Of a DNA stretch of 33,418 bases, positions 347 through 24,410 are shown one piece after another. The position numbers and the translations under genes are program-made. The notes beneath the pieces are model-generated. The model was not told the DNA's origin, ran no database searches, and saw nothing but the letters and a program-made list of their open reading frames with translations. The stretch comes from Exilispira sp. (GTDB lineage: Bacteria > Spirochaetota > JAAYUW01). Position 1 is the stretch's first letter. Each line of letters starts with the position of its first letter. Location of the stretch: positions 1-33,418 of the forward strand of contig JAAYUW010000128.1 in the NCBI GenBank assembly GCA_012517545.1. The letters are read 5' to 3'.

Positions 347-1102
347 ATGGAGATTAAAAAAATCAATAATACTTTTTTACCATTAAGGCTTGGAGTAAAT
401 ATAGATCATATCGCTACACTTAGAAATGCAAGGAAAGAAGGATTTCCATCTGTCATTCAGGCAGCTACAGTTGCAATATCTGCAGGTGCAGATATGATAG
501 TCTGTCATCTGAGGGAAGATAGAAGGCATATAATGGATGATGATGTAAAAGAACTCAGATCGGCTATTAACAAAGATTTAGACCTTGAAATGGCTTTAAG
601 AGACGATGTTATAGATATGTCATTTAAAGTTAAGCCAGATAAGGTTACTATAGTTCCTGAAAAAAGGGAGGAAGTCACCACCGAAGGGGGGCTTGATATT
701 AATAAAAATAAATCAAAGCTGAAAGATCTTGTTATGGAGTATAAAAAAGCCAGAATTGAGATTTTTCTGTTTGTTGAACCTGATATAGAGATTATTGAAA
801 GTTGCGCTCAACTTGGAGTTGATGGCATAGAGATCCACACCGGTAGTTATAGCAGAGCTCGAGGGAAGGACGCCATTCATGAATATAAACGAGTCCTGAT
901 AGCAGCAAAGAAAGCAGATGAACTGGGTCTTGATGTTGCTGCCGGGCATGGTCTTGACTATCAGAACGCTCCGTTAATTGCCACTATCCCTTATATTTTT
1001 GAATTTAACATAGGATTTTCTATAATAGCAAATAGCATTTTTTATGGTCTTGATGACTCTGTTAAAAGAATGAAAGATATAATAAACGCAAGTAGAAGAT
1101 AG
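347..1102 (+). CDS. pdxJ: Pyridoxine 5'-phosphate synthase PdxJ
   Basis: PdxJ is a cytoplasmic TIM-barrel enzyme. It condenses 1-deoxy-D-xylulose 5-phosphate with 3-amino-2-oxopropyl phosphate to make pyridoxine 5'-phosphate, the last ring-forming step of the DXP-dependent vitamin B6 route. The 251-residue protein has about the family length. The N-terminal LGVNIDHIATLRNAR motif, the CHLREDRRHI motif (His54), the Glu81 region and the GHGLDYQN motif (His201) all match the known active site. The segment usually written NIGH near the C terminus reads NIGF here (Phe224), a change at a position linked to phosphate binding. An AAGGATG-like ribosome binding site lies about 7 bases before the ATG. 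acpS, a frequent neighbour, is not seen next to it. The family call is secure. Confidence 0.97.
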   Translation: MEIKKINNTFLPLRLGVNIDHIATLRNARKEGFPSVIQAATVAISAGADMIVCHLREDRRHIMDDDVKELRSAINKDLDLEMALRDDVIDMSFKVKPDKVTIVPEKREEVTTEGGLDINKNKSKLKDLVMEYKKARIEIFLFVEPDIEIIESCAQLGVDGIEIHTGSYSRARGKDAIHEYKRVLIAAKKADELGLDVAAGHGLDYQNAPLIATIPYIFEFNIGFSIIANSIFYGLDDSVKRMKDIINASRR

Positions 1103-1256: not shown

Positions 1257-1266
1257 AATCACAGAT

Positions 1267-1337
1267 TGCGGGCTAGTGTAATGGCAGCACGACAGACTCT
1301 GGCTCTGTTTGTGAGGGTTCAAATCCTTCGCCCGCAG
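1267..1337 (+). tRNA. tRNA-Gln (anticodon CTG)
   Basis: The sequence folds into a full cloverleaf. It has a perfect 7-bp acceptor stem (1267-1273 with 1330-1336) and a D arm with GTGT/GCAC. The anticodon stem is ACAGA/TCTGT with loop CTCTGGC, giving anticodon CTG. The T arm GAGGG/CCTTC encloses the loop TTCAAAT. The discriminator base is G1337, as expected for glutamine tRNA. CCA is not encoded and must be added after transcription. The total length is 71 bases. It stands alone between pdxJ and the DJ-1-family gene. Confidence 0.96.
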
Positions 1338-1596
1338 ATTTTATCCCTTGTTGGCTCTTCTGCTAAGGATAAGGTAACAAAGCTAAAATGCTGCACCGGC
1401 AGATTTTATTTCTTCAACTAAATACCACTTTTATGTATTATTATTTTAATGTTGCCAAATCCTTAACCTTCAGGTTCTATCTCCTGCTTTATCGTGTTTA
1501 ATCTTCTTAATGTACTTTATCTTTTTGTCTATTCGATAGATGAATATTATCTTTATTTTTTTGAATAAAAATGAGTATTTTAAAAAGGTATTTTTT
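1338..1596. other. Intergenic DNA after the tRNA, with a repeated tRNA tail
   Basis: I see no convincing gene here. The 11-base string GCAGATTTTAT, made of the last tRNA bases plus flank (1334-1344), occurs again at 1399-1409. The second copy overlaps a small hairpin (CTGC-ACCG-GCAG, 1391-1402) followed by an interrupted T-rich tract that might help end tRNA transcription. The rest is AT-rich and featureless. Confidence 0.4.
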
Positions 1597-2259: not shown

Positions 2260-5200
2260 TTAATCAGCACAAATTTGATTTTTGCCTTTTTGTTTTGCGT
2301 TGTACATCCTTTTATCAGCTATTTGAATTAGTTCTTCAAGCCACTGACCATCATCGGGGTAGTATGATATCCCTACACTAACGGTAAGAGCTTTCGGTGC
2401 TGATATTAATTTAGCATCTTCAACTTTTTTTTTCAATTTTTCAGCTACAAGCATTGCATTTTGTCTTGAAATATCAATAAGAGCAACGATAAATTCGTCT
2501 CCACCATATCGACCTATAAGATCGTGCTTTCTTACATTTTGTTTAACTATTTGTGCAAAACTATTAAGTACTTCGTTTCCTTTCTGATGACCAAAACTAT
2601 CATTTACTGTTTTAAAGTTATCAATATCAATAAACAAGAAACCCATACCAGAACTATTTTCTTCTTTTCTTTGTTTTTGAAGTGAAATAATCTCTGAAAC
2701 TTTCTTATAAAATATTTCTTTTAAATAAAATCCAGTTAGATGATCTTTTAAAAATTTATTTTGCTCATTCTTTGTTGTAAAAAAGTGTGATAGAAATAAT
2801 TCTAAAAAATCAAGAAAATCTTCATTGAAGTTTTCTTTAATGATATTTTTTTTATCAAGATACAACCAGTATTCAGGCTTAGAATTAAAGGAAAATTTTT
2901 TTGCCCTCTTATCATAAGGGGCTGTCACAGTACGAACAAGCTTATAAAGTTCAAATACCGGTATTAGCACGGCCGATTTAACTTTAATGTCCATTAAGTT
3001 TAAAGGGAAATTTGTGATAACAGGTTTATCAGTATTTAAGATAAAATTATTATCAAGATATATTCCCTCATTTTCAAAGTACAATGAGTTATCAAATATA
3101 TAGACAAAGATTTGCTCAATTGCATCTTCATGCTGTTCATTCTTATAGGATTTTAAAAAAATTACCCTATCAAAATATAATTCTGACATTATTGCTATTG
3201 CAAGATTATCTATTGTGTCGGATTCTTGAACTGATATGGAGTTAAAAATTTCAACTTTAAGTTGCTCTTTATCTATCTGAGTTGTTTCAACAAATTTTGT
3301 GAGGCTTTTTAATATTTTATAATACTCAGTACTTCCTTTTTTATCTACAAATTCTGATGAAAAATTTTTTCCCTTATTTATTTTTTCAATATAACCATAT
3401 AGATCATAAGATATAAATTGTAAAAGATAAGAGTATGGTGTTAGCTCAAGACATTTTTTATTTTTGAAATATGAGATATTTTTGTTTATGAAAAAAAGAA
3501 AATTAGCCAGATAATGTATTGCTCTTTTGTCATTATATTCTTTATAAATAATAGATTTTACGAGGTTATATAATCCGTCAAGTACTGGAATATCTATAAG
3601 TGGAATTTTATCGATATAAGATAAATCAATGTTTTTCAGGAATTCTTTATCATCTCTTTTTTGTAGCACTTCTACGAGAAAATCTATTGATTTTGAAGCT
3701 ACTTTATTTATTCTATGTATATTCTGGCTAATAGATTTCAAAATTGCATAGAAATATTGTTCGTTCTGATCTTTTAGTGAAGAAAAAACAAAATTCAATA
3801 CAAAGATATCTATTTGATAATTCTTATAGGAAAAAATACTCGAAAGACCATCTGTAAGATCATTGAAAAGTTCATCACTGAATCCATATTTAAAAAGCAA
3901 GATAAGCGATTTTATTATTTTGTAAAATTTATACGATTCATCATCCTTTTTAAAAGAATCCTCAAGTTTATCTATCAAAGCAAAATAAGAGTCAAGTTTA
4001 TCAAGTTTATCAAGGTAAAAATATGTTAGCATAACTCCTTCAATCGATAAAAGAAAATTAATATTAGTTTCAGTATCCGCAATTTCATAAGCAAAAATAA
4101 AATTATTATGCTTTTCAAGAAGTTTTTCCATATTGATAGGTTTTAAATAAAAAGATAAGTTATGCAAAAGTATGAATATCGATTTTGCGTCCTGTAATGT
4201 TGTAGCTATTTGAAAGGACTTTAAATAGTATCTGATTTTTGATTTTACATCTGGCATGATTGCTGCATAATTGTTGTAAATTGTTGGCATCATTTCTATT
4301 ATATAATTATCTTCCATGATCTTAATTGCTTTTTCGATATGAATAAACTGATTTTTTCTATCATTTTTTACATAATAAAAAACAAAAATATTGTTTGTAG
4401 ATAAGACAGCTAATTCCCATAAACCATATTTTCTGGCATAAAACTGAGCTTGTTCATTGTGCCTTTTATATTCATCATAGTTTTTGAGCCATCGCATATA
4501 TTCACCTTTATATATAAGTGATTGAGTAAGTAAAATTGCTTCATAGTAATTTAGTTCCTGTAAGTCTAAATATTTATCTATTATTTGATCAGATTTTTTA
4601 CTTAGAAGCTTATATTTATTCTGGATATGCAGAAAGTTTAAAATCTGTATTTCTATCAGAAATAACTCTTCCTCAGTGTTAATATTTCTTCCTATATTTT
4701 TTAATTTTTTTAGACTTTCGTTAAATGCATTGATATCTTTTTTTCTCATCTGGATTCTTGAAAGGATGTAATATTTTGCAAATTTACTTTGTCTATTTCT
4801 ATCTGAAACAAGATTTAGAGTATTTATTGCTAAAGAAATATTCTCTTTTTCAAAATAATAAGCGCAAGTTATAAGTATAATATCGAAAAGATATTCGGGT
4901 AGATTTAAGGTGTTTAATTGTGCTTTATCAAGATGGAATTCTGGTAGTGTACTTTTTTCCAGTTTTTTAATATCTATGTATTTAACCAGAAATTGGTATC
5001 TACTCTGTCTATCAGTAAGGTTATAATTGTTATAGGAACTTTCAATAAATGCCCTGTAAAGCAAGACTTTAATCTTTTCATATTCTTTTAGTTCTATGAG
5101 TATTTCGAAAAGCATATTCTTTTCTGCTTCTTTTAAAATACTATAGTTGTTGAGATAGATCTCTTCTGCTAATTTCATATTATTGATATTCTTTATTAGT

Positions 5201-6831
5201 GATGATCTTTTTATCCTTCTTGCATAGTAGTATGAGATAGTGTTGCTAACTATAAAATGTTCATCATCAATAAAGTAAATATACTCTTTTTTTAATAGCA
5301 TATTTAATAATTTTTCTGTATACTGATTAATTCTTTCTATTTTTCCAGATAAAGTTGCATTAAACCATTGAACCAGAAAGATTTTTTTATAAGGGGGAAT
5401 AAAAAAATTTAAAAATGAAATCAAAGAATAAGTTAAAATGGAAGATCTATCTTTCTCCTTTTCAAACTTAGATGTCAAATCTTGTATATATTCGCTTGTG
5501 TATCTGTAACTTGAAAAAAAATCATCTAAATTAAGGTCAGATTTTGAGAATAAGTATATAAAATGGTAGTAATCCTTAATCTTTTTTTTAATTAAATTTT
5601 CATTTATTCCAAATGAATGAGCCAGTATATCGTTGAGTCTTTTTACAAGATCCCCGGTAATTAGAGAATGAGCAATATTTTTTATATTGTAGTTTAATTT
5701 ATCCTTCTTATTCAAAGTCAGTTCGTGTGAGTTGATAATAGTCAAAACTGGATGGCTTAAAGATGATAAAATAGAAAAGAGAAGGCTTTTATGTATCAAG
5801 GTTGCTAGATCATATTTAGATACTATCAAAACAAGATTTCCTGATAAATTTATTGATTCAAACAGATCAATAAGTAAAACTTTTAGCTGGGAAATATCCA
5901 ATTTTTGTTTGTGCAAAATAATATGATCGATTTTATTGCAAAAATTTTGTTCAATGTTAAACAACTTAAGTTGTAAAGCAAGCATCTGCAAAATATAATA
6001 AGGGTCCTGCATTAAAAATATTGTTATTGGAATCAAACCATTGATTAAAGAAAGATCAGATATAAAGTCTGCAATTAAATTAAAATTAATATAGTTTAGT
6101 GAGAAGAAATTTAAAATCAGACTTTTTTGAAGATTTTTATAATTTGTAATTTCATTAAAGACTTTAGAATATAAAGATTTTTCAATAAATATATTAAAAA
6201 TTTTATTATGAGAATATCTTTCCCATGCTATTTTTAGTGATGAATTATCTATAATATTTTTATCCATCAAATTTTCAAGAAAATTCATATCTTTATCAAA
6301 CTTAGTCCCACCTTCCATATCTATAAAAAACAAAAGTCGTTCTTTGCTCACAATTATGTTATCAGATTTTAAATTCCCGTGCGCATAGCCGAGGATGTGC
6401 ATATTTTTTATTATAGAAGCCAATTTTATAAATAATCGTTGTTTGATATTAGCAATATTGTAATTATTTGATTTTTTGTTTTCAAAATTATCTTCATCTG
6501 ATTTTTCATTTAGGATTTCTTTTAGCGTTTTGCCTTCGATATAATCCATGGTATAGAATATATAATTACTGCTTAATTCGCTATTATCTATATTATTTAT
6601 CTTACCAATTTCATATACTCTGACTGTCCAGGGGAAAAAACTATACTTTAGCATTAAATATTCATTTTTAAAATTATTAATTTTCTCTGTTCCAAGATTA
6701 TCAAAGTCGTAAAGTTTTAATAATTTTAAAGGAGAAGATTTATCGATAAGATCCCTGACTTTGTATACATATCCATATTCTCCATGGTAATATACTGATA
6801 ATATTTCATATCTATTGTTTATTATTTTCAT
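2260..6831 (-). CDS. Giant signalling protein: kinase-like head, ATPase-like segment, helical repeats, GAF-like region, GGDEF diguanylate cyclase
   Basis: This is a 1523-residue soluble protein with no clear membrane segment. Residues 1-175 follow the Ser/Thr kinase fold: a Gly-loop-like HGEYGYVYK, Lys36, Glu57, and the catalytic loop AHGNLKSDN at 150-158. The catalytic Asp of HRD is Asn153 and DFG reads DME (171-173), so phosphotransfer looks unlikely. Residues about 240-470 align in style with the AAA/STAND ATPase usual after such kinases, but no GxxxxGK[ST] is present. Residues about 560-1100 are helical, TPR-like in character. About 1170-1350 looks GAF-like. The C terminus is an intact GGDEF domain: DHLTGF (1363), FIDIDNFKTVNDSFGH, an RKHD inhibitory site (1434-1437) and GGDEF (1443-1447). 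Predicted output is therefore c-di-GMP synthesis with product feedback. GAGG lies about 6 bases before the ATG. The ligand or partner is unknown. Confidence 0.88.
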   Translation of the reverse strand: MKIINNRYEILSVYYHGEYGYVYKVRDLIDKSSPLKLLKLYDFDNLGTEKINNFKNEYLMLKYSFFPWTVRVYEIGKINNIDNSELSSNYIFYTMDYIEGKTLKEILNEKSDEDNFENKKSNNYNIANIKQRLFIKLASIIKNMHILGYAHGNLKSDNIIVSKERLLFFIDMEGGTKFDKDMNFLENLMDKNIIDNSSLKIAWERYSHNKIFNIFIEKSLYSKVFNEITNYKNLQKSLILNFFSLNYINFNLIADFISDLSLINGLIPITIFLMQDPYYILQMLALQLKLFNIEQNFCNKIDHIILHKQKLDISQLKVLLIDLFESINLSGNLVLIVSKYDLATLIHKSLLFSILSSLSHPVLTIINSHELTLNKKDKLNYNIKNIAHSLITGDLVKRLNDILAHSFGINENLIKKKIKDYYHFIYLFSKSDLNLDDFFSSYRYTSEYIQDLTSKFEKEKDRSSILTYSLISFLNFFIPPYKKIFLVQWFNATLSGKIERINQYTEKLLNMLLKKEYIYFIDDEHFIVSNTISYYYARRIKRSSLIKNINNMKLAEEIYLNNYSILKEAEKNMLFEILIELKEYEKIKVLLYRAFIESSYNNYNLTDRQSRYQFLVKYIDIKKLEKSTLPEFHLDKAQLNTLNLPEYLFDIILITCAYYFEKENISLAINTLNLVSDRNRQSKFAKYYILSRIQMRKKDINAFNESLKKLKNIGRNINTEEELFLIEIQILNFLHIQNKYKLLSKKSDQIIDKYLDLQELNYYEAILLTQSLIYKGEYMRWLKNYDEYKRHNEQAQFYARKYGLWELAVLSTNNIFVFYYVKNDRKNQFIHIEKAIKIMEDNYIIEMMPTIYNNYAAIMPDVKSKIRYYLKSFQIATTLQDAKSIFILLHNLSFYLKPINMEKLLEKHNNFIFAYEIADTETNINFLLSIEGVMLTYFYLDKLDKLDSYFALIDKLEDSFKKDDESYKFYKIIKSLILLFKYGFSDELFNDLTDGLSSIFSYKNYQIDIFVLNFVFSSLKDQNEQYFYAILKSISQNIHRINKVASKSIDFLVEVLQKRDDKEFLKNIDLSYIDKIPLIDIPVLDGLYNLVKSIIYKEYNDKRAIHYLANFLFFINKNISYFKNKKCLELTPYSYLLQFISYDLYGYIEKINKGKNFSSEFVDKKGSTEYYKILKSLTKFVETTQIDKEQLKVEIFNSISVQESDTIDNLAIAIMSELYFDRVIFLKSYKNEQHEDAIEQIFVYIFDNSLYFENEGIYLDNNFILNTDKPVITNFPLNLMDIKVKSAVLIPVFELYKLVRTVTAPYDKRAKKFSFNSKPEYWLYLDKKNIIKENFNEDFLDFLELFLSHFFTTKNEQNKFLKDHLTGFYLKEIFYKKVSEIISLQKQRKEENSSGMGFLFIDIDNFKTVNDSFGHQKGNEVLNSFAQIVKQNVRKHDLIGRYGGDEFIVALIDISRQNAMLVAEKLKKKVEDAKLISAPKALTVSVGISYYPDDGQWLEELIQIADKRMYNAKQKGKNQICAD

Positions 6832-7288: not shown

Positions 7289-7363
7289 GTACTTCTGGTT
7301 AATGTGTACTTTTTAGCCTTTTCGCAGTAAATGAAGAGCGAGAAGATAATTTGTCGGATGAAC
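7289..7363 (+). repeat. Dispersed inverted-repeat element, copy 1 (75 bp)
   Basis: This 75-base element recurs, split by extra sequence, at 23267-23435. Its ends are imperfect inverted repeats (GTACTTCTGGTTAAT at the left; right end read on the other strand GTTCATCCGACAAAT). An inner stem CTTTTCGC (7318-7325) pairs with GCGAGAAG (7338-7345) as 8 pairs including one G-T. It holds no reading frame and lies about 100 bases before the csx3-like gene. It resembles a small non-autonomous (MITE- or REP-like) element or a transcribed hairpin; which one is not decidable here. Confidence 0.7.
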
Positions 7364-7464
7364 TTAAAATTTGCGATAAAAATCAATATTATTATTTCTT
7401 GTAAGAGTTGAATTTAATAACCTTTATTGAGCCAATACTATTTTTATTGAAAGTGAGGCGAATC

Positions 7465-7797
7465 GTGAATGATAAAATTAAATTTGAGCTTATTGATGGT
7501 ATTGATTTCATGCTCCTTGAGTTTGAACTAAAACAAAATTTACTCGCTGAAGATTTAAAAACGCTGGATTTGCCGGATCCAGTGAAGTTAAAATTTTCCA
7601 ATAGGCTCTTTGTTATCTCGGGTCGCGGACCTATCTGGCTTTATTGTTATCTTACCCATTTTTATCATGTGTGTCGAGCTATAGCAGTTTTTGATCCACG
7701 TTTTCAAGCTGCTGTTGTAGTGCAAACTCATGATGATTCATATGAAGTTGGAGATCTTGTTGAAATAGACTCTTCGCAACTACACATTGGTAAATAA
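7465..7797 (+). CDS. csx3: Csx3-like protein (Crn3 ring-nuclease family), stand-alone
   Basis: The 110-residue product matches the Csx3 family from type III CRISPR systems, whose characterised members degrade cyclic tetra-adenylate and bind or cut RNA with Mn2+. Family landmarks are the N-terminal IKFELIDG strand, SGRGPIWLY (52-60), LTHFYH with His65 and His68, AVFDPR with Asp77 and Arg79, and the VVVQTH strand with His89 followed by Y-EVGD. The conserved His/Asp/Arg/His set is thus retained. I choose the GTG at 7465 because GAGG (7455-7458) lies 6 bases upstream and the product then has the family length; an upstream in-frame ATG at 7408 would add 19 hydrophobic residues. All four Arg codons are non-AGA (AGG, CGC, CGA, CGT), unlike the neighbours. 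No cas gene or CRISPR array is visible nearby. Confidence 0.85.
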   Translation: MNDKIKFELIDGIDFMLLEFELKQNLLAEDLKTLDLPDPVKLKFSNRLFVISGRGPIWLYCYLTHFYHVCRAIAVFDPRFQAAVVVQTHDDSYEVGDLVEIDSSQLHIGK

Positions 7798-8203: not shown

Positions 8204-10270
8204 ATGACACACGAAATGATGATGCTTGTTTTTCAGCTTGGAATCATTATTTTTTTGGCAAAACTTGGTAACAGAATATTTGAAAAAATCCATATCCCTG
8301 GTCTTATTGGCGAGCTTGTTGTTGGCATCATAATAGGGCCTTATCTTCTGGGTTCTCTATCACTACCAGGATTCCCCGATGGAATTTTCCCGTTGGGTCA
8401 TAATTTCCCGGTTTCAACTGAACTTTATGGAATTTCAACAATAGCTTCAATAATTCTGCTTTTTATTTCTGGAGTTGAAACAGACTTAAATCTGTTTATC
8501 AGATACAGTGTGGTAGGTGGTTTTGTCGGTGTCGGAGGGATAATTTTTTCCTTTCTTTTTGGTATGCTTGTTGCTTTATTTTTTTCTGGCCCACTATTAG
8601 GTAAATCGATGGGTTTTTTTTCACCACAAACACTTTTTTTAGGCGCTATGGCTACAGCAACTTCTGTAGGTATTACGGCAAGAATTCTCTCAGAGAAAAA
8701 AAAGATGGAGTCGCCTGAAGGAGTTACCATCCTCGCTGGTGCAGTAATAGACGATGTTGGTGGTATCATAGTTCTTGCTATAATTCTTGGTATTGTTGGT
8801 TCAAACACAGATAACGGTGGTCTTGACTGGGGAAAGATTGGTATTATTGCAGCAAAATCTTTTGGAATATGGCTTGCTGCGACTGCTATAGGTATTCTCG
8901 CATCGCATAGAATAAGTGGTTTGCTTAAACTTTTCAAAACAAAAACAACTATAGCGATAATGTCGCTTGGCCTGGCTCTTATAGTAGCTGGTTTTTTTGA
9001 AGAAGCTGGTCTGGCTATGATTATTGGAGCTTATGTAACTGGTTTATCACTTTCAAACACAGATATAAAAAATCTTATAAACGAGATACTTCATCCTCTA
9101 TATGAATTTTTTGTACCAATTTTTTTCTGTGTAATGGGTATGCTTATTGATGTCAGAACTTTTGCATCTCCTAAGGTTATCCTTTTTGCTCTTATATATA
9201 CAATTGCTGAAAGTTTAGCAAAGATTTTAGGTTGTGGTTTGCCTTCTCTAGCATTCAATTTTAACCTTAAAGGAGCTTATAGAATAGGTGCTGGTATGAT
9301 CCCTCGTGGTGAAGTAGCATTAATTATAGCTGGTATCGGTATTTCAGCTGGTTTCATTCAACAGGATGTTTTTGGTGTGGCTGTTTTTATGACTTTAGTT
9401 ACAACACTTGTGGCTCCTTCTTTCCTGATTTCTGCCATGAATATTAAAGGCAGTGGTACTAAAAAAGAATCTAAGGTAGAGCAGATTGATAGTTATGTTT
9501 GCTCATTTAAATCAAATGAACTTGCCGAACTCATGCTACAAAATACCATTGAGTTATTTGATGAAGAAGGCTTTTTTGTCAGTACTTTAAATCCACAGGA
9601 TAATATCTATCAGTTAAGAAAAGATAGATATGTAATAACAGTAAGCTTAAATGGGCAGGATTTAATATTCCACTATCGTAAAACTGATGAAGGCATAGTT
9701 CTTGGCAGTCTGGTAGATGTTTTTGCAAAGGTGGAAAAGATGCTTCAGGGGTTAAAAGAACCAATAAATAAAAATGAAGCAATTAAAGCCTTGTTTGAGC
9801 AAAAAGAAGAAGAAAGGACTCCACCAATTGATCCTAAGTATTTCAATATTAATTACATTATCCCGGATCTTAAATCTAAGACCAAAGAAGGAGTTATTCA
9901 GGATCTTCTCAGTATTTTAGTTGAAGATAATACAAAAATTGATTTCTCTTATGCCTTTAAAGAACTTATGAAGAGGGAAAATGAGATGAGCACAGGTCTT
10001 CAAGATGGTGTTGCTATCCCTCATACTAAAATTGAAGGTATAGATAAGATAATCTGTGCTGTAGGAATTTCAAAAAGCGGGATAGATTTTAATTCACTTG
10101 ATGGAAAACCTTCGCATATCTTTTTTCTCATTTTAAGTCCTATAGCAGGAACAAATAGACTTGAACTTTTATCACAGATTGCAAAAAAGATGACTGAAAA
10201 AAACAGAAGAAAACTTTTAAATGCAAAATCTGCAGAGGAGATCTACAAGATTCTAACGACAGAAGGCTGA
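8204..10270 (+). CDS. CPA2-type cation/proton antiporter with C-terminal PTS EIIA domain
   Basis: Residues 1-405 form a 12-13 helix membrane domain of the monovalent cation:proton antiporter-2 family. The acidic pair Asp183-Asp184 in GAVIDDVGG is the ion/proton site, and a PRGE motif lies in a late helix. DD at this site suggests an electrogenic Na+(K+)/H+ exchanger rather than a KefC-type QD channel, as inference. Residues about 420-530 are a soluble linker domain I cannot name. Residues about 545-688 are a PTS EIIA (fructose/Ntr type) domain with the phosphorylation motif GVAIPHTK, His607. The sugar/nitrogen phosphotransfer chain may therefore control ion exchange. The length of 688 fits a fusion of the two. 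A TGAGGAC ribosome binding site lies about 7 bases before the ATG. The glutaredoxin gene follows after 83 bases. Confidence 0.93.
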   Translation: MTHEMMMLVFQLGIIIFLAKLGNRIFEKIHIPGLIGELVVGIIIGPYLLGSLSLPGFPDGIFPLGHNFPVSTELYGISTIASIILLFISGVETDLNLFIRYSVVGGFVGVGGIIFSFLFGMLVALFFSGPLLGKSMGFFSPQTLFLGAMATATSVGITARILSEKKKMESPEGVTILAGAVIDDVGGIIVLAIILGIVGSNTDNGGLDWGKIGIIAAKSFGIWLAATAIGILASHRISGLLKLFKTKTTIAIMSLGLALIVAGFFEEAGLAMIIGAYVTGLSLSNTDIKNLINEILHPLYEFFVPIFFCVMGMLIDVRTFASPKVILFALIYTIAESLAKILGCGLPSLAFNFNLKGAYRIGAGMIPRGEVALIIAGIGISAGFIQQDVFGVAVFMTLVTTLVAPSFLISAMNIKGSGTKKESKVEQIDSYVCSFKSNELAELMLQNTIELFDEEGFFVSTLNPQDNIYQLRKDRYVITVSLNGQDLIFHYRKTDEGIVLGSLVDVFAKVEKMLQGLKEPINKNEAIKALFEQKEEERTPPIDPKYFNINYIIPDLKSKTKEGVIQDLLSILVEDNTKIDFSYAFKELMKRENEMSTGLQDGVAIPHTKIEGIDKIICAVGISKSGIDFNSLDGKPSHIFFLILSPIAGTNRLELLSQIAKKMTEKNRRKLLNAKSAEEIYKILTTEG

Positions 10271-10353: not shown

Positions 10354-10578
10354 ATGGTTATAGTATATTCTACGCCAACCTGTCCATATTGTTCTATGGT
10401 TAAAGAATATCTTAAAAACAAAAATATCCCTTTTAGTGATATCGATGTTTCTCAAAATATCACTGCTGCAGAGGAGATGATCCGCAAGTCTGGTCAAAGT
10501 GGTGTTCCCGTGATAGATTTTAATGGACAAATAGTTATTGGTTTTGATAGATCAAAACTTGATAAACTTATCAAATAA
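10354..10578 (+). CDS. Glutaredoxin-family protein (CPYC)
   Basis: This 74-residue protein is a small glutaredoxin/NrdH-like thiol-disulfide oxidoreductase. It has beta strand VIVYSTPT, active site CPYC (Cys10, Cys13), the cis-proline motif GVPVI and a terminal GFDRSKLDKLI helix. It probably reduces protein disulfides in the cytoplasm, drawing electrons from a thioredoxin- or glutathione-type partner not encoded here. AAGGA lies about 7 bases upstream of the ATG. Its stop codon (10576-10578) lies inside the left arm of the bidirectional terminator. Confidence 0.94.
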   Translation: MVIVYSTPTCPYCSMVKEYLKNKNIPFSDIDVSQNITAAEEMIRKSGQSGVPVIDFNGQIVIGFDRSKLDKLIK

Positions 10579-12039: not shown

Positions 12040-12669
12040 ATGAATAAAAAGCAAGATTTTAATAAAAAAGATGGTAATAAAAAAGAAGTCTTCAAGAAAG
12101 ATACTTTTAAAGATAAGAATACTTTAAACAACAATAAGTTAACAGAGGGTTTATTAAATATCGAACAATTTAAAAATACACTTTTATCTGAATCTAAAAG
12201 TATTTTCCCGATAAATGGAATTAACCTTGTATCTTTGGTTATTACACCCAGGAAACTGGTACAGATAACGATAATGAAAAAAGGAGGAATAACAATCGAC
12301 GATTGTCAGTATATTTCAAAAATATTTCAACCGCTTATACCGGAAGATTATGATTTTCAAGTTCAAAGTCCTGGTATAGGTTTTGAGATACGTCCTGGTA
12401 CAAAAGAATTTGAACTTTTAAGTTTATTTGAACAGCTACCAGTAAAGGTTTTTTATTATGAGGAAAATAGAGATAATTCAGAAGTAAATGATAATAATAA
12501 AAAAGTACTTGAAGCCAGTGGAACCTTTAGTATTGTTACTGATGGGTTAATTTTAAAGAAGTTCAGTAATAAAAAAAAGAATAAAGATAATAAAGAAATA
12601 GAACTTCTGCAGGTTCCTTTTGATAGAATTATTAAAATTAAAACTACTTTCTTTTCGGAGGAGATATGA
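12040..12669 (+). CDS. rimP: Ribosome maturation factor RimP
   Basis: RimP helps mature the 30S ribosomal subunit in the cytoplasm. The core is recognisable from LVSLVITPRKLVQITI, the KGGITIDDCQYISKIF motif near residues 83-98 and FQVQSPGIGFEIRPG, which matches the family's EVSSPG segment. The 209-residue product is longer than the usual 150-160 because of about 38 Lys/Asn/Asp-rich N-terminal residues and a Lys/Asn-rich insertion in the C-terminal SH3-like part. The call also rests on position: it overlaps nusA by 4 bases (ATGA), the standard order. Ribosome binding signal AGGGA lies about 7 bases before the ATG. Confidence 0.88.
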   Translation: MNKKQDFNKKDGNKKEVFKKDTFKDKNTLNNNKLTEGLLNIEQFKNTLLSESKSIFPINGINLVSLVITPRKLVQITIMKKGGITIDDCQYISKIFQPLIPEDYDFQVQSPGIGFEIRPGTKEFELLSLFEQLPVKVFYYEENRDNSEVNDNNKKVLEASGTFSIVTDGLILKKFSNKKKNKDNKEIELLQVPFDRIIKIKTTFFSEEI

Positions 12670-14243
12670 CAAGAAGAAGTTCAACTAAAAGTAACGCGAA
12701 CGAATTTTACAATGAGATAGAAAATATTGCAAAAGAAAAAAATATTTCGACTGAAATAGTGCTTGAATGCTTTAAAAGAGCTTTAATAATTGCATATAGA
12801 AGTTATATATATAAAAGTGAAGGAACAACAAAGGAAGATAAAAGAAAAGATAAAACAAATGATGTAAATCTTACAATAGCAAGAAATAAAAATCAACTTG
12901 AAATACTTATTGAAAAAAAAGTCGTTAAGAAACCAGAGTTTTTACTGAAAGAGATTTCTTTAAAGGATGCAAAAAAGATAAAAGAAGATGTTCAATTAGA
13001 TGATACAATACTTGTCCCTGTTGATTATAGTAACTTTCCATCCACTGTTGTGAGATCAGCGATAGATTCTTTTACAAATGAGATCCAGAATTATGTTGGT
13101 AACAAGCTTTATGAAGAATATAAAAAGCTTGAAGGCTCTATAGTCATTGGGAAAATTCATCGTATAGTTAAAGGAACAGCATATGTTTATCTCGATGAAT
13201 CTAAAATCGAGGCATATTTACCACCTGAAGAGAAATCTCCACTCGATGATATAAAAGTTAATGAATCTAAAAAATTTCTTATAAAACTTGTAAAATCTGA
13301 CAGTGTTGCCGACGATAACGATGACAAGAAGCAGATGAAAGAGAAAAAAAAGGCTGTTCCTACTATTATTCTTTCACGAAATGATCCAAAATTTGTTCAG
13401 AGGCTAATAGAAAGTGAATCTGAAGAGGTAGCAAGGAAAGAGGTCGAGGTTGTTAAGATTGTCAGAGAACCAGGATATAAAACTAAGGTTGCTGTTTCAT
13501 CTAAAATTCCCGGTAAAGATCCAGTTGGAACTGTGCTTGGTAAAAATTCATCTAGAATTTCAAATGTAAGGTTAGAGCTTGGTGGAGAAGTTATCGAAGT
13601 TGTCCAGTATTCACCTAATGAAATTGAATACATCCAGAATGCTTTAAATGTTTCCAAATTCGGTTATGGTAAAATCATTAAGGTCAAAGATACTCCCGAA
13701 GAAAAGAGATGTATCTTTGTTCTTGATAAAGATTCGGATAAAGATAAAATTGTTGGCAAAAGTGGTAATAATGTTAGACTTGCCTCCAGATTGACTGGCT
13801 GGAAGATAGATGTTAAAACACGAAACGAATTTGAAAACTCAGAGATATACAAACTTATAAGCAAAGATATCGATGAATTATTCGCAAAACAAACTGTGAC
13901 AGAAGAAAAAGAGGAACTGGAAGAAATAGGTGAAGATGCTTCTATAACTGTTTTACAGGATCAGCTTGGAAATGAAATCATTAAAAAGCTTCAAAATGCC
14001 GGGATAGATCTTGTATCAACACTTATTGATTGGCACGAGAGTCATAGACTTCAAACTATAAACTCTCTCTCACCTTCAGAGCTTCTAACGATAAATCGAT
14101 TCATAGAACAAAATGTCGAAATTGAAGATGATGAAGAAGAGGAGGAGTTTGAAAATGATTATGCAGAATGCCCTAACTGCCATAAAAAGATTGACCCTGA
14201 TGCCTCTGAATGTCCTTATTGTGGAATTAAATTTGAAGAATAA
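12666..14243 (+). CDS. nusA: Transcription elongation/termination factor NusA with C-terminal zinc ribbon
   Basis: NusA binds RNA polymerase and nascent RNA to control pausing, termination and antitermination. Domains in order are an N-terminal polymerase-binding domain (1-150, with a charged insertion at about 55-70), S1 (about 155-225, with a Lys/Asp-rich insert near 215), KH1 (about 270-330) and KH2 (about 335-400, with the conserved VGKSGNNVRLASRLTGWKIDV). A helical C-terminal segment follows (about 435-480), then an acidic stretch and a four-cysteine zinc ribbon CPNC-x10-CPYC (Cys502, 505, 516, 519). The KH1 GxxG loop reads GKNS (292-295), where GMKG is usual. The Cys ribbon is not part of the standard NusA core. 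The gene begins inside the rimP stop and is followed 90 bases later by infB. Confidence 0.95.
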   Translation: MTRRSSTKSNANEFYNEIENIAKEKNISTEIVLECFKRALIIAYRSYIYKSEGTTKEDKRKDKTNDVNLTIARNKNQLEILIEKKVVKKPEFLLKEISLKDAKKIKEDVQLDDTILVPVDYSNFPSTVVRSAIDSFTNEIQNYVGNKLYEEYKKLEGSIVIGKIHRIVKGTAYVYLDESKIEAYLPPEEKSPLDDIKVNESKKFLIKLVKSDSVADDNDDKKQMKEKKKAVPTIILSRNDPKFVQRLIESESEEVARKEVEVVKIVREPGYKTKVAVSSKIPGKDPVGTVLGKNSSRISNVRLELGGEVIEVVQYSPNEIEYIQNALNVSKFGYGKIIKVKDTPEEKRCIFVLDKDSDKDKIVGKSGNNVRLASRLTGWKIDVKTRNEFENSEIYKLISKDIDELFAKQTVTEEKEELEEIGEDASITVLQDQLGNEIIKKLQNAGIDLVSTLIDWHESHRLQTINSLSPSELLTINRFIEQNVEIEDDEEEEEFENDYAECPNCHKKIDPDASECPYCGIKFEE

Positions 14244-14308
14244 AAAATTTGTATAAAATGATTTTAAGATATTTAATTCAATTGCAATTTGTAAATTTTA
14301 GAGTAGAT

Positions 14309-14332
14309 ATGAAACAGGAGTATTATTATTAA
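14309..14332 (+). other. Possible 7-codon upstream reading frame before infB
   Basis: ATG at 14309 opens MKQEYYY and stops at TAA 14330-14332, one base before the infB ATG at 14334. The infB AGGAG (14316-14320) lies inside this frame, 13 bases from the infB ATG, which is unusually far. Translating the short frame could deliver terminating ribosomes to infB. It may also be chance. Confidence 0.3.
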
Positions 14333-14333
14333 A

Positions 14334-17162
14334 ATGAGCAAAAAGAAGATCATAACTTACCTGAAAGAAAAAGAACTTACAGAAACTCAAGTAAGAAATA
14401 TAATTACCAAATATGGATTTAACCCTGAAGATTTAACTAACGAAGATATCCAGAAAAAGATAGATGAAGAAGTTGAAATATATAGGAAGCCTCAAAAAAA
14501 ACTTATTATCAAGAGGAAAGTGGTCAAAAAAGCTACTATAAAAACAAGTGTGGATGTTGATTTAGAAACACCACAAACTGACGAAGAGGTTAAAGCTCCT
14601 GTTTCTATTAGTGAAACTGGGAATGTTGCCACAAAAACCCTATCAAAGAAGGAGAAATCTTCTATCACCGAACCTATGATGGTAGAAGCGACCTCATCTA
14701 AAGAAAATGAAAGCATAGAAAAAGCTGCTCTGAGAACTGCTAAAAGAAAAAGCAAAACTGAAGATAATGTTTCAGTCATAGAAGCTCCACTTGAAAAAAC
14801 AGAAAAACAAGCAGAAACTTCTGTTAAAGCTAAAAAAACAGAGAAAATAAATGCAGATAATTCAAGTAAAGCCGAAAGTGCTGAAACAAAAACATATGAG
14901 AACAAAAATGAAACTGCTGAAGCGATAGATGCTGAGGTAGAAAACACTCTGGAACAGGAAGATAAGAAAGAAGGAAAAAATAGAACAACTTTTGAGTCAA
15001 ATAAAAGATATACATATAAACCCTCTGAATCAAGTCAAACTGCTTCTACTGAACATCATAAAAAAAGGATTTTTATAAGGAAAAATACTCCTGCTCCAAC
15101 CACTACAAGAGAAAGACCTCATTATCAAAATTATCAGAGAACTGGTCAACAGCAAAGACCTCAAAACTTTTTTTCATCATTTTCAAAAGGTCAGAAAAAT
15201 TCACAAACTACTACTCCAGTTGTTGAAAACACATTTCAGAAAAAAAAGAAATATGTTGAGCATAAACCAGAGATAAAAGATAGGGATGAATTTAACAATA
15301 AACTTAATCCAATTTTAAAGAAAAAAAGGGAAACAGAGTTTGCAATTCCACTGGAGATTGAAATTCCAGAATCAATTTCAGTTTCGGAACTGGCAAGAAA
15401 GATGAATATTAAAGCGAATATACTCATTCAAAAGTTGTTTGAGATGGGAAATTCTGTTACTATTAACCAGATGCTGGATGCTGATACAGTAGAGATACTT
15501 TTATCAGATTTTAATTGTAAAGTTAAGAGAACTTCCATATTCGATGCTGTAAAGATCCCTATTCAGGACAATATAGTTCCTGAACTTAAGAAAAGGCCAC
15601 CTATTGTTACTGTCTTAGGTCATGTTGATCATGGTAAAACAACGCTTCTTGATAGGATAAGAAAAACAAACGTTGCTTCAACAGAGGTTGGAGGGATTAC
15701 TCAGAGAATAGGAGCATATAAGGTTAAGATAAAGGGAGAAGAGATAGTTTTTATAGATACCCCCGGGCATGAAGCATTTACATCTATGAGAGCTAGAGGT
15801 GCAAGTGTTACAGATATAGCAATACTGGTAGTCGCAGCCGATGACGGAGTTATGCCTCAAACAGTAGAAGCTTTAAATCATGCGAAACAGGCAAAGGTCC
15901 CTATAATAGTTGCTATGAATAAGTGCGATAAGCCTGATGTCAAGACCGAAAAGATAATGACTGATCTTACAGCTTATGATATTCTTCCACAGGAATGGGG
16001 TGGAGATACAATGTTTATACCTATCTCTGCACTTAAAGGAGATGGTGTTGATGAACTTCTTACCGCAATACTCCTTGTTGCAGAATCTCTCGATCTAAAA
16101 GCAGACTACAATCCTAAAAGATGGGCTGATGGTGTTGTTATTGAGTCTCGACTGGATAAAGGTAGAGGTATTGTTGCAACTGTACTTGTTAAAAATGGTA
16201 TTTTAAAGGAGAAGGATTTCTTTATAGCTGGTAACTACGATGGAAAAGTTAAAATTATGACAGATGAAAATGGTGTTAGACTGGATAAGGCTTATCCTTC
16301 TACACCAGTAGAGGTCATAGGTTTTGAGCAGTTACCAGATGCTGGTTGTATTTTGCAGGTTGTTGACTCTGAAAAAACAGCAAGAGATATTGCTAGAAAA
16401 AGAAGAGAACTGGAAATATATGAAAAGCAGAAAGAAAACGCTGTAAATTTAGCCAATATTCTTACAAAAATAAATAAGGGTGAAGTTGGTGAACTAAATT
16501 TAATAATAAAAGCAGATGTTCAGGGGATGGCTGAAGCTTTAAAGACATCACTTGAGAAACTTTCAGTTCCAAAAGTAAAGGTAAATGTTATCTTATCTTC
16601 TGTTGGAGCTATTACAGAGTCAGATGTCAACCTTGCTGCTACTGCTAAAGCTATAATTATTGGCTTTAATACTAAACCAACAAAAGAAGCACAACTTATT
16701 GCAGAAAGAGAAAATATCGAAATTCGTCGATATAGCATAATTTACGATGTAATAGAAGATGTTAAGGATGCCATGCTTGGCCTTGCTGCACCTAAGTTTA
16801 GAGAAGAGATAATAGGGGAAGTAGAAATACGGCAGATATTTAAAATACCCTCAATTGGTGTAGTCGGCGGAGCCTTTGTAACAAAGGGAGTTATAACAAA
16901 AGACGCTCAGTGTAGAATATTTAGAGACAACACTCTGATATATACCAGTAAAATTGGTTCGCTGTATAGATTTGAAAATCCAGTAAAAGAAGTCAAGCAG
17001 GGGATGGAATGTGGTATTACAATTGAAAAATATAACGATTTACATGAAAATGATATAATCGAGATATTTAAAAATGTCGAAGAGAAGCAGAGTTTTGAGG
17101 AACTTGCTGCTTATCAAGAAACTGAAAACAGTGATAAAGCAAATAAAATAGAAAAGGAATAG
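14334..17162 (+). CDS. infB: Translation initiation factor IF-2
   Basis: IF-2 is the GTPase that brings initiator tRNA to the 30S subunit and promotes subunit joining. The 942-residue protein has a short helical N-terminal segment, a long disordered Lys/Glu/Thr-rich region (about 45-340), the IF2-N domain ([12 protein letters not shown], about 350-405), and the GTPase domain with G1 GHVDHGKTT (429-437), G3 DTPGHEA (475-481) and G4 NKCD (529-532). Beta-barrel domains II to IV follow, including the [11 protein letters not shown] motif and the C-terminal initiator tRNA-binding domain. About 25 extra acidic/polar residues extend the end. The ribosome binding site spacing is long (13 bases); see the short upstream frame. 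rbfA follows after 26 bases. Confidence 0.98.
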
Positions 17163-23266: not shown

Positions 23267-23435
23267 GTACTTCCGGTTAATTGCATACTTTTTAGGCTTC
23301 TCGCAACACAGTGAAGAGCTTATATTTTTTTGCTTTTTGCTTTTCTTTTTATGACTTAACCTGAAAAAGAAGCGAATATCAAAAATAGGTTTTTCATAGT
23401 AGATGAAGAGCGAAAAGATAATTTACCGGATGAAC
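23267..23435 (+). repeat. Dispersed inverted-repeat element, copy 2, split by an 84-bp insert
   Basis: The left part 23267-23319 and right part 23404-23435 match copy 1 (7289-7363). The outer ends are inverted: GTACTTCCGGTTAATT against GTTCATCCGGTAAATT on the other strand, 13 of 16 identical. The octamer TGAAGAGC occurs once in copy 1 but on both sides of the insert here (23312-23319 and 23404-23411), as a target duplication would. The insert is AT-rich with an imperfect hairpin (GCTTTTCTTTTT against AAAAAGAAGCGA). As with copy 1, a gene starts shortly downstream (23478). Confidence 0.7.
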
Positions 23436-23477
23436 CTATAATACGGCTGAAATATTGAAAAGGATTTTAAATTTGAT

Positions 23478-24410
23478 ATGGAGTCTACAAAATTTAAATC
23501 TAAACCAAAACTTACCATTTATTTGTACGCTACTTTTTCGATGCTTTTCTGGGGACTTTCATTCGTCTGGGTTAAGATAGCTTATGAATATTATCGACCT
23601 ATTACGCTTGTTACTATTAGACTTTTTGTGGCTACCATTATATTGGCAATATTTTTAATTTTTAGAAAACCAAAGGTAGAAATCGAAGCAAAAGATTTAC
23701 CAGTATTCGCACTCCTGGCTTTTTTTGAACCATTTTGCTATTTTTTAGGTGAAAGTTTTGGGATGCAGTTTGTTTCTTCCACGCTGGCTAGCGTTATAAT
23801 AGCAATGATCCCAGTAATTGCACCTTTTTTTACCTTCATTTTTTACAGGGAAAAGTTATCATTATCTGGTTTCTTAGGACTTTTCATATCATTTTCAGGA
23901 GTTTTATTCTTAATAATTGACAAAAATTTTAAGCTGGTAGCCGAACTTAAAGGTATACTCCTGCTTTTCTTTGCAGTGTTTTCATCTATTGGATATAGTC
24001 TTATTGTTAAAAAATTGACTTTAAAATATGATTCAATCACGATAATAACAATGCAAAATGGTTTTGGATTTGCTTATTTTCTTCCATTTTTTTTAATCTT
24101 TGATTTCAAGCATTTTATAACAGTTACCCCTGATATTCGCTTGATTACAACTATTTTACAGCTTTCAATATTTGCCAGTGTTCTTTCATTTATACTTTTT
24201 ACATCAGTTATTCGACAACTTGGTATAAACACATCAAATATATTTACGAACTTGATACCACTTTTTACAGCTCTTTTTTCATTCATAATTTTGAAAGAAA
24301 AGTTCAATTTTCAAAAGATAGCAGGTATATTGCTTGTACTTCTTGGTGTTTTTGCATCTCAAATTGACTTGAACTCAATCTTTAAAAGGAAGAAGATAAA
24401 AAATCAGTAA
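23478..24410 (+). CDS. EamA/DMT-family transporter
   Basis: The 310-residue protein has ten predicted membrane helices in two EamA repeats, the layout of the drug/metabolite transporter superfamily. Typical features are the first-helix FWGLSFVWVKIA segment, SSTLASVIIAMIPVIAPFFTF ending the first repeat, and NIFTNLIPLFTALFSFIILKEKF ending the second. Members export amino acids, metabolites or drugs, and the substrate is not readable. The AAAAGGA signal is about 13 bases before the ATG, longer than usual, so the start is less certain. folE2 follows after 38 bases and is probably co-transcribed. Confidence 0.9.
   Translation: MESTKFKSKPKLTIYLYATFSMLFWGLSFVWVKIAYEYYRPITLVTIRLFVATIILAIFLIFRKPKVEIEAKDLPVFALLAFFEPFCYFLGESFGMQFVSSTLASVIIAMIPVIAPFFTFIFYREKLSLSGFLGLFISFSGVLFLIIDKNFKLVAELKGILLLFFAVFSSIGYSLIVKKLTLKYDSITIITMQNGFGFAYFLPFFLIFDFKHFITVTPDIRLITTILQLSIFASVLSFILFTSVIRQLGINTSNIFTNLIPLFTALFSFIILKEKFNFQKIAGILLVLLGVFASQIDLNSIFKRKKIKNQ

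Follow-up and report, generated by a model that had tools for sequence, protein, structure and literature searches.

Ring nucleases, enzymes that destroy the CRISPR alarm molecule made by Cas10, have to our knowledge been examined almost exclusively as parts of type III loci. The Csx3 (Crn3) protein of Archaeoglobus fulgidus (AfCsx3; AF1864; PDB entries 6YUD, 3WZI, and 6VJG) and its studied relatives are members of type III CRISPR systems (PMC7371418). The Asp69 face of AfCsx3 binds cyclic tetra-adenylate (cA4) through Ser44, Gly45, Arg46, Ile49, Arg71, and other residues, the His60 face is made up of His57, His60, and His80, and the H60A and D69A variants are inactive (PMC7371418). In Escherichia coli, the M. 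mazei Csx3 partly relieved Csx1-mediated cA4 immunity driven by a heterologous Csm complex (PMC7371418). A ring-nuclease-family gene situated away from a CRISPR locus has been described in Pseudomonas fluorescens, where the orphan Csx15 belongs to a different family; in the available portion of that report, PfCsx15 sequesters cA4 with little ring nuclease activity and is not described as the relict of a lost locus (PMC13148439).

The csx3 gene described here resembles PfCsx15 in its isolation and AfCsx3 in its sequence. It occupies positions 7465–7797 of the forward strand of the window, a stretch of 33,418 nucleotides that is one whole 33-kb contig of a draft Exilispira genome (2.36 Mb, 197 contigs, 93.6% complete), and encodes 110 residues from a GTG start, with a candidate ribosome-binding site (GAGG, 7455–7458, forward strand) lying 6 nt 5′ of it. 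All of the Csx3 motifs listed in an earlier, sequence-only reading of this DNA are found in the open reading frame. The identification of the product as a bona fide Csx3 (Crn3), made in the same reading, is strongly supported: profile scores exceed the curated cut-offs (Pfam PF09620, 87.8 bits, cut-off 21; NCBIfam TIGR02579, 97.5 bits, cut-off 55.4), and PADLOC and PDB sequence searches likewise match the product to Csx3.

The window protein is approximately 39% identical to AfCsx3 and shares its fold. The first 13 matches of an alignment-based AlphaFold2 model (pLDDT 94.7) in a PDB fold search are all AfCsx3, and the TM score against cA4-bound Csx3 (6YUD) is about 0.8–0.9 (0.82–0.90). In alignment A3, all nine tabulated ligand and catalytic positions are identical in the two proteins, with window residues Ser52, Gly53, Arg54, Ile57, His65, His68, Asp77, Arg79, and His89 corresponding to AfCsx3 Ser44, Gly45, Arg46, Ile49, His57, His60, Asp69, Arg71, and His80. 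Both the cA4 face (Ser44, Gly45, Arg46, Ile49, Asp69, Arg71 in AfCsx3 numbering) and the histidine face (window His65, His68, His89) are retained, and the protein is predicted from these residues to be a cA4 ring nuclease.

In contrast to AfCsx3 and its studied relatives, the window csx3 has no cas neighbor in its 33-kb contig, and no array adjoins it. Profile HMMs started from cas proteins and run iteratively across every fetched locus pick up csx3 alone in the window and neither cas nor Csx1 genes, CRISPR-like spaced repeats are absent from its first 12.1 kb, and the congener CRISPR repeat is absent from its whole length, even allowing three mismatches. For cas genes, Csx1, and the repeats covered, these scans bear out the earlier statement that the 33 kb contain no cas gene, CARF effector, or repeat array. 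The description of the gene as an orphan holds for the window but fails genome-wide, where cas6 and a type III-A cas10/csm1 are encoded on a second contig, C197; an orphan call made from one contig can prove wrong when the other contigs are taken into account. Comparison of cas proteins with the intergenic stretches beside csx3 by tblastn, using a reversed-sequence control, yielded no convincing cas remnants.

The earlier reading had also found its observations to fit horizontal gain of csx3; in such a scenario a lone gene would have entered AT-rich DNA together with or beside a dispersed element. Several observations are in keeping with this: csx3 is scattered over many phyla and matches only 4 of 393 genomes of its own phylum, no csx3 was reported in two congener assemblies, a copy of the element lies just upstream, and the arginine codons are odd. 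As previously stated, none of the four arginines is encoded by AGA, as against 65% AGA in nine neighboring genes. This is thin evidence, given that it involves four arginines only and a chance of 0.015, uncorrected, for one pre-chosen codon. Composition does not mark csx3 as foreign, since its G+C content (35.7%) and GC3 (0.25) fall inside the ranges of neighboring genes (25.8–36.2% and 0.20–0.27); compositional foreignness was consequently rejected.

The existence of the dispersed element is confirmed, and it is species-specific: 25 places in the source genome match it, against none in the two congeners. The copy next to csx3 (7290–7380, forward strand) ends 84 nt upstream of the gene, and a second window copy (23391–23442, forward strand) precedes a transporter-like gene (23478–24410). 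The inverted-repeat structure that had been ascribed to the element did not stand, as its hairpin potential is no better than that of shuffled sequence (z −0.44). The element is short and situated in AT-rich intergenic DNA, and the window copies end 36–84 nt upstream of genes.

The genomic setting of csx3 carries more information about its origin. In the window the gene is flanked on the left by pdxJ (347–1102, forward strand) and tRNA-Gln(ctg) (1266–1338, forward strand) and on the right by a Na+/H+ exchanger gene with an EIIA domain, here nhaE for short (8204–10270, forward strand); csx3 is on the same strand as nhaE, and 6.9 kb separate tRNA-Gln from nhaE. These genes serve as synteny anchors: pdxJ, with identities of 72% and 71% in congeners G001 and G002, precedes the tRNA in both, and nhaE is upstream of rimP-nusA-infB (12040–17162 in the window, forward strand) in all three genomes. 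A 74-residue glutaredoxin-like open reading frame with a CPYC motif (10354–10578) is present between nhaE and tauE, and its DNA is conserved in both congeners.

In G001, contig C43 begins inside csx3 (last 13 residues; tail KEFSIGEVVRYEL followed by the stop codon), which overlaps csx1, and proceeds in the order csx1-cmr2-cmr1-cmr3-cmr4-cas1-cas2-array. The last 46 nt of this contig (a repeat and 17 nt of spacer) are found again within the array that ends contig C50; the two arrays share their repeat and its orientation, and C50 continues into nhaE, tauE, rimP, nusA, and infB. A join between C43 and C50 is probable but unproven, because it depends on one shared piece of spacer and the preceding spacers differ; the differing spacers could arise from strain mixtures. 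One contig of G002 passes from pdxJ-tRNA-Gln into type I-B cas genes, cas1, and cas2, with which it ends, and another contig starts near nhaE; type I-B genes but no cmr genes are present in the G002 interval. In neither congener (0/2) does a single contig span the interval; read across these contig gaps, the evidence places csx3, in the expected orientation, at the site that CRISPR-Cas occupies in the genus. How the two system types can share a locus is seen in the phylum-mate G153, where I-B genes and Cmr genes lie together at a site that includes cmr6-csx3-csx1.

Horizontal gain is not favored, because in both congeners the interval is linked to CRISPR-Cas, and the csx3 of G001 is inside a Cmr operon. 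The absence reported for the congener assemblies reflects, in G001, a gene cut by the contig end, the base composition fits that of the neighbors, and the element copy upstream is merely one of 25 in the genome. Arrival of csx3 as a foreign gene is, on balance, unlikely.

Relatives of the window protein point to the same kind of locus. In the phylogenetic tree, which comprises 96 columns and is weakly supported overall, the window protein is placed among Csx3 proteins of cmr6-csx3-csx1-cmr2 operons (SH-aLRT 88–90), and operonic members of the same subgroup (L049–L052) are 45–50% identical to it. These and the operonic Csx3 genes of two phylum-mates (L023 in G113, L024 in G153) belong to Cmr operons, complete or partial, and are neighbors of a Csx1 effector gene, whereas the window csx3 stands alone. 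Its end branch is also longer, at 0.88 versus 0.1–0.3 for the operonic relatives, which could reflect relaxed constraint. Among 80 Csx3 loci from public genomes, 72 have at least one cas match in the fetched stretch, although for four of these a TIGR03985 protein is the sole match. Most of the eight loci lacking a cas match are short on one or both sides, and three (L048, L099, and L106) extend for several kilobases to either side of csx3; as the loci were drawn by pattern scans, these numbers are no unbiased census. Cas-free cellular Csx3 is uncommon, but not unique.

The sequence-only reading had suggested that a lone Csx3 could damp a type III system encoded at another genomic site, and a genome-wide search for type III cas genes located a candidate. 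A Cas10 palm domain was found at C197:1–420 of the same assembly, and the gene it belongs to (C197:1–2094) encodes 698 residues of Cas10/Csm1 (TIGR02578, 435.6 bits, cut-off 170) with a GGDD cyclase motif and an HD motif. The gene is cut by the contig end and adjoins cas6, so that the genome of csx3 contains a truncated Csm1 with an intact cyclase motif, attributable to a type III-A system. The order cas6, csm1, moxR, DUF58, UPF0597, RNase J is common to C197 and contig C72 of G001, where csm1–csm5 are complete within this neighborhood, and the match argues strongly against C197 being a binning error. With this Cas10 present, damping of a type III system elsewhere is plausible; the Cas10 gene itself, as distinct from the damping, is directly observed.

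No match to a RAMP protein, Cas1, or the Csx1 CARF domain was obtained in the source assembly. As no RAMP was matched, csm2–csm5 either fall in an assembly gap or have been lost, and the III-A system may be incomplete. The search for CARF effectors was limited to the Csx1 type, since a Csm6 model matched nowhere, controls included, and was discarded as uninformative.

The cas6 site beside the moxR-DUF58 block is occupied by csm (III-A) genes both in the source genome (C197; L028:1–3214) and in G001 (C72; L037). In G002 (C27; L036) a cmr (III-B) system with cas1 comes after this cas6 instead, beside a homolog of a gene that flanks the site, such that cas6 is shared and the effector module exchanged.

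A rival explanation is that csx3 is a decaying relict, unexpressed or unneeded, perhaps for want of a cA4 effector in the III-A system. The long end branch, the missing Csx1 CARF and csm2–csm5, and the gene-free flanks of 21–23% G+C would agree with decay. Against this, the csx3 reading frame is full-length and keeps every active-site residue, the fold is confidently predicted, and a plausible ribosome-binding site is retained, while the neighboring cas genes have gone without trace. Decay is quite unlikely in light of this difference in preservation.

The explanation that we hold with moderate confidence is that csx3 outlived a lost III-B/I-B locus and that its product is able to work in trans on cA4 supplied by the III-A system still present. 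The pdxJ-tRNA-Gln to nhaE interval of an ancestor would have housed a type III-B Cmr locus, probably continuous with a type I-B one, in which csx3 stood between cmr6 and csx1; in the source lineage all of this locus except csx3 would have disappeared. The gene, presumably expressed, would yield head-to-tail dimers of Csx3, two of them stacking on the ligand, that sandwich cA4 and, with Mn2+, cut it into linear A2 as AfCsx3 does. Its likeliest present role would be the clearance in trans of cA4, the presumed product of the Cas10 on C197. Action in trans on a type III-A system is feasible, since the M. mazei Csx3 acted on a foreign Csm complex (PMC7371418), and by analogy it is mechanistically reasonable that a Csx3 from a III-B locus should serve a III-A Cas10. 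The gene probably represents an off-switch left behind, not a foreign arrival, because related bacteria keep a CRISPR-Cas locus at this place and the source genome retains Cas10. An apparent survival of csx3 beyond its own locus, with a different type III system left, would make this genome a natural case of an off-switch working in trans, and leads to the testable prediction that ring nucleases can outlast their loci of origin.

It is interesting to speculate whether, after the loss of III-B, selection kept Csx3 in a new job, as a chromosomal cA4 guard or sponge for III-A or in the service of another cyclic-nucleotide signal; this is an unlikely variant. A more radical version, in which the protein is no longer a cA4 ring nuclease and functions as a sponge, or as an enzyme for another nucleotide signal, could draw on the long branch and on PfCsx15, for which binding and sequestration of cA4 rather than cleavage form the precedent (PMC13148439). 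It is very improbable, given that all of the Csx3 catalytic residues are kept, including His57, His60, Asp69, Arg71, and His80. The gene next to csx3 (2260–6831, reverse strand) had prompted a conjecture of a link to c-di-GMP-type signaling; it encodes a large kinase-like/GGDEF protein, but no evidence connects the two, the gene is divergent from csx3, and it is absent from the congener stretches compared. The GGDEF protein comprises 1523 residues, with a kinase-like N-terminal region and a C-terminal GGDEF domain.

A last possibility is that a prophage left csx3 behind as a phage-borne anti-CRISPR. Some viral contigs that lack cas genes do encode Csx3: an alignment-based scan recovered at least 13 such loci (L128–L140), with cas genes detected in none, and four of them encode a terminase large subunit (L132, directly before csx3; L133; L134; L137), while another encodes a phage primase and a ribonucleotide reductase. 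A search of annotated phages gave no match to the window protein, a scan of viral contigs with it as single sequence found nothing, PHROGs gave no match for the window protein or three viral Csx3 proteins, and a BFVD fold search with the window Csx3 gave no significant match. None of the identified window genes is phage-like, and in the tree the window protein groups with Csx3 of Cmr operons, the viral copies not being its nearest kin. With neither a phage or prophage location nor kinship to phage copies, a phage origin is extremely improbable, and survival from a lost CRISPR-Cas locus is preferred.

The viral copies include a divergent subgroup (GRAPIWRYGMAFH-like) formed by L134–L140 and a phage-like Pyramidobacter plasmid record, and a further Csx3 gene lies on a viral contig with no cas genes nearby (L021:6603–6887). 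A published survey covering 28,114 phage genomes lists the ring nucleases AcrIII-1, Csx20, and Csx16 but not Csx3 (PMC12409355). Phage-borne Csx3, as a putative anti-CRISPR, deserves its own study. Among cellular copies, a csx3 from Thermotogota (L054) has lost His57, which is replaced by Glu, whereas all nine positions are intact in the window protein; the Thermotogota gene directly precedes one for a membrane protein with an apparent CARF-type domain, and the pair (L054:9926–11400) is possibly a cA4 module without a nearby CRISPR locus.
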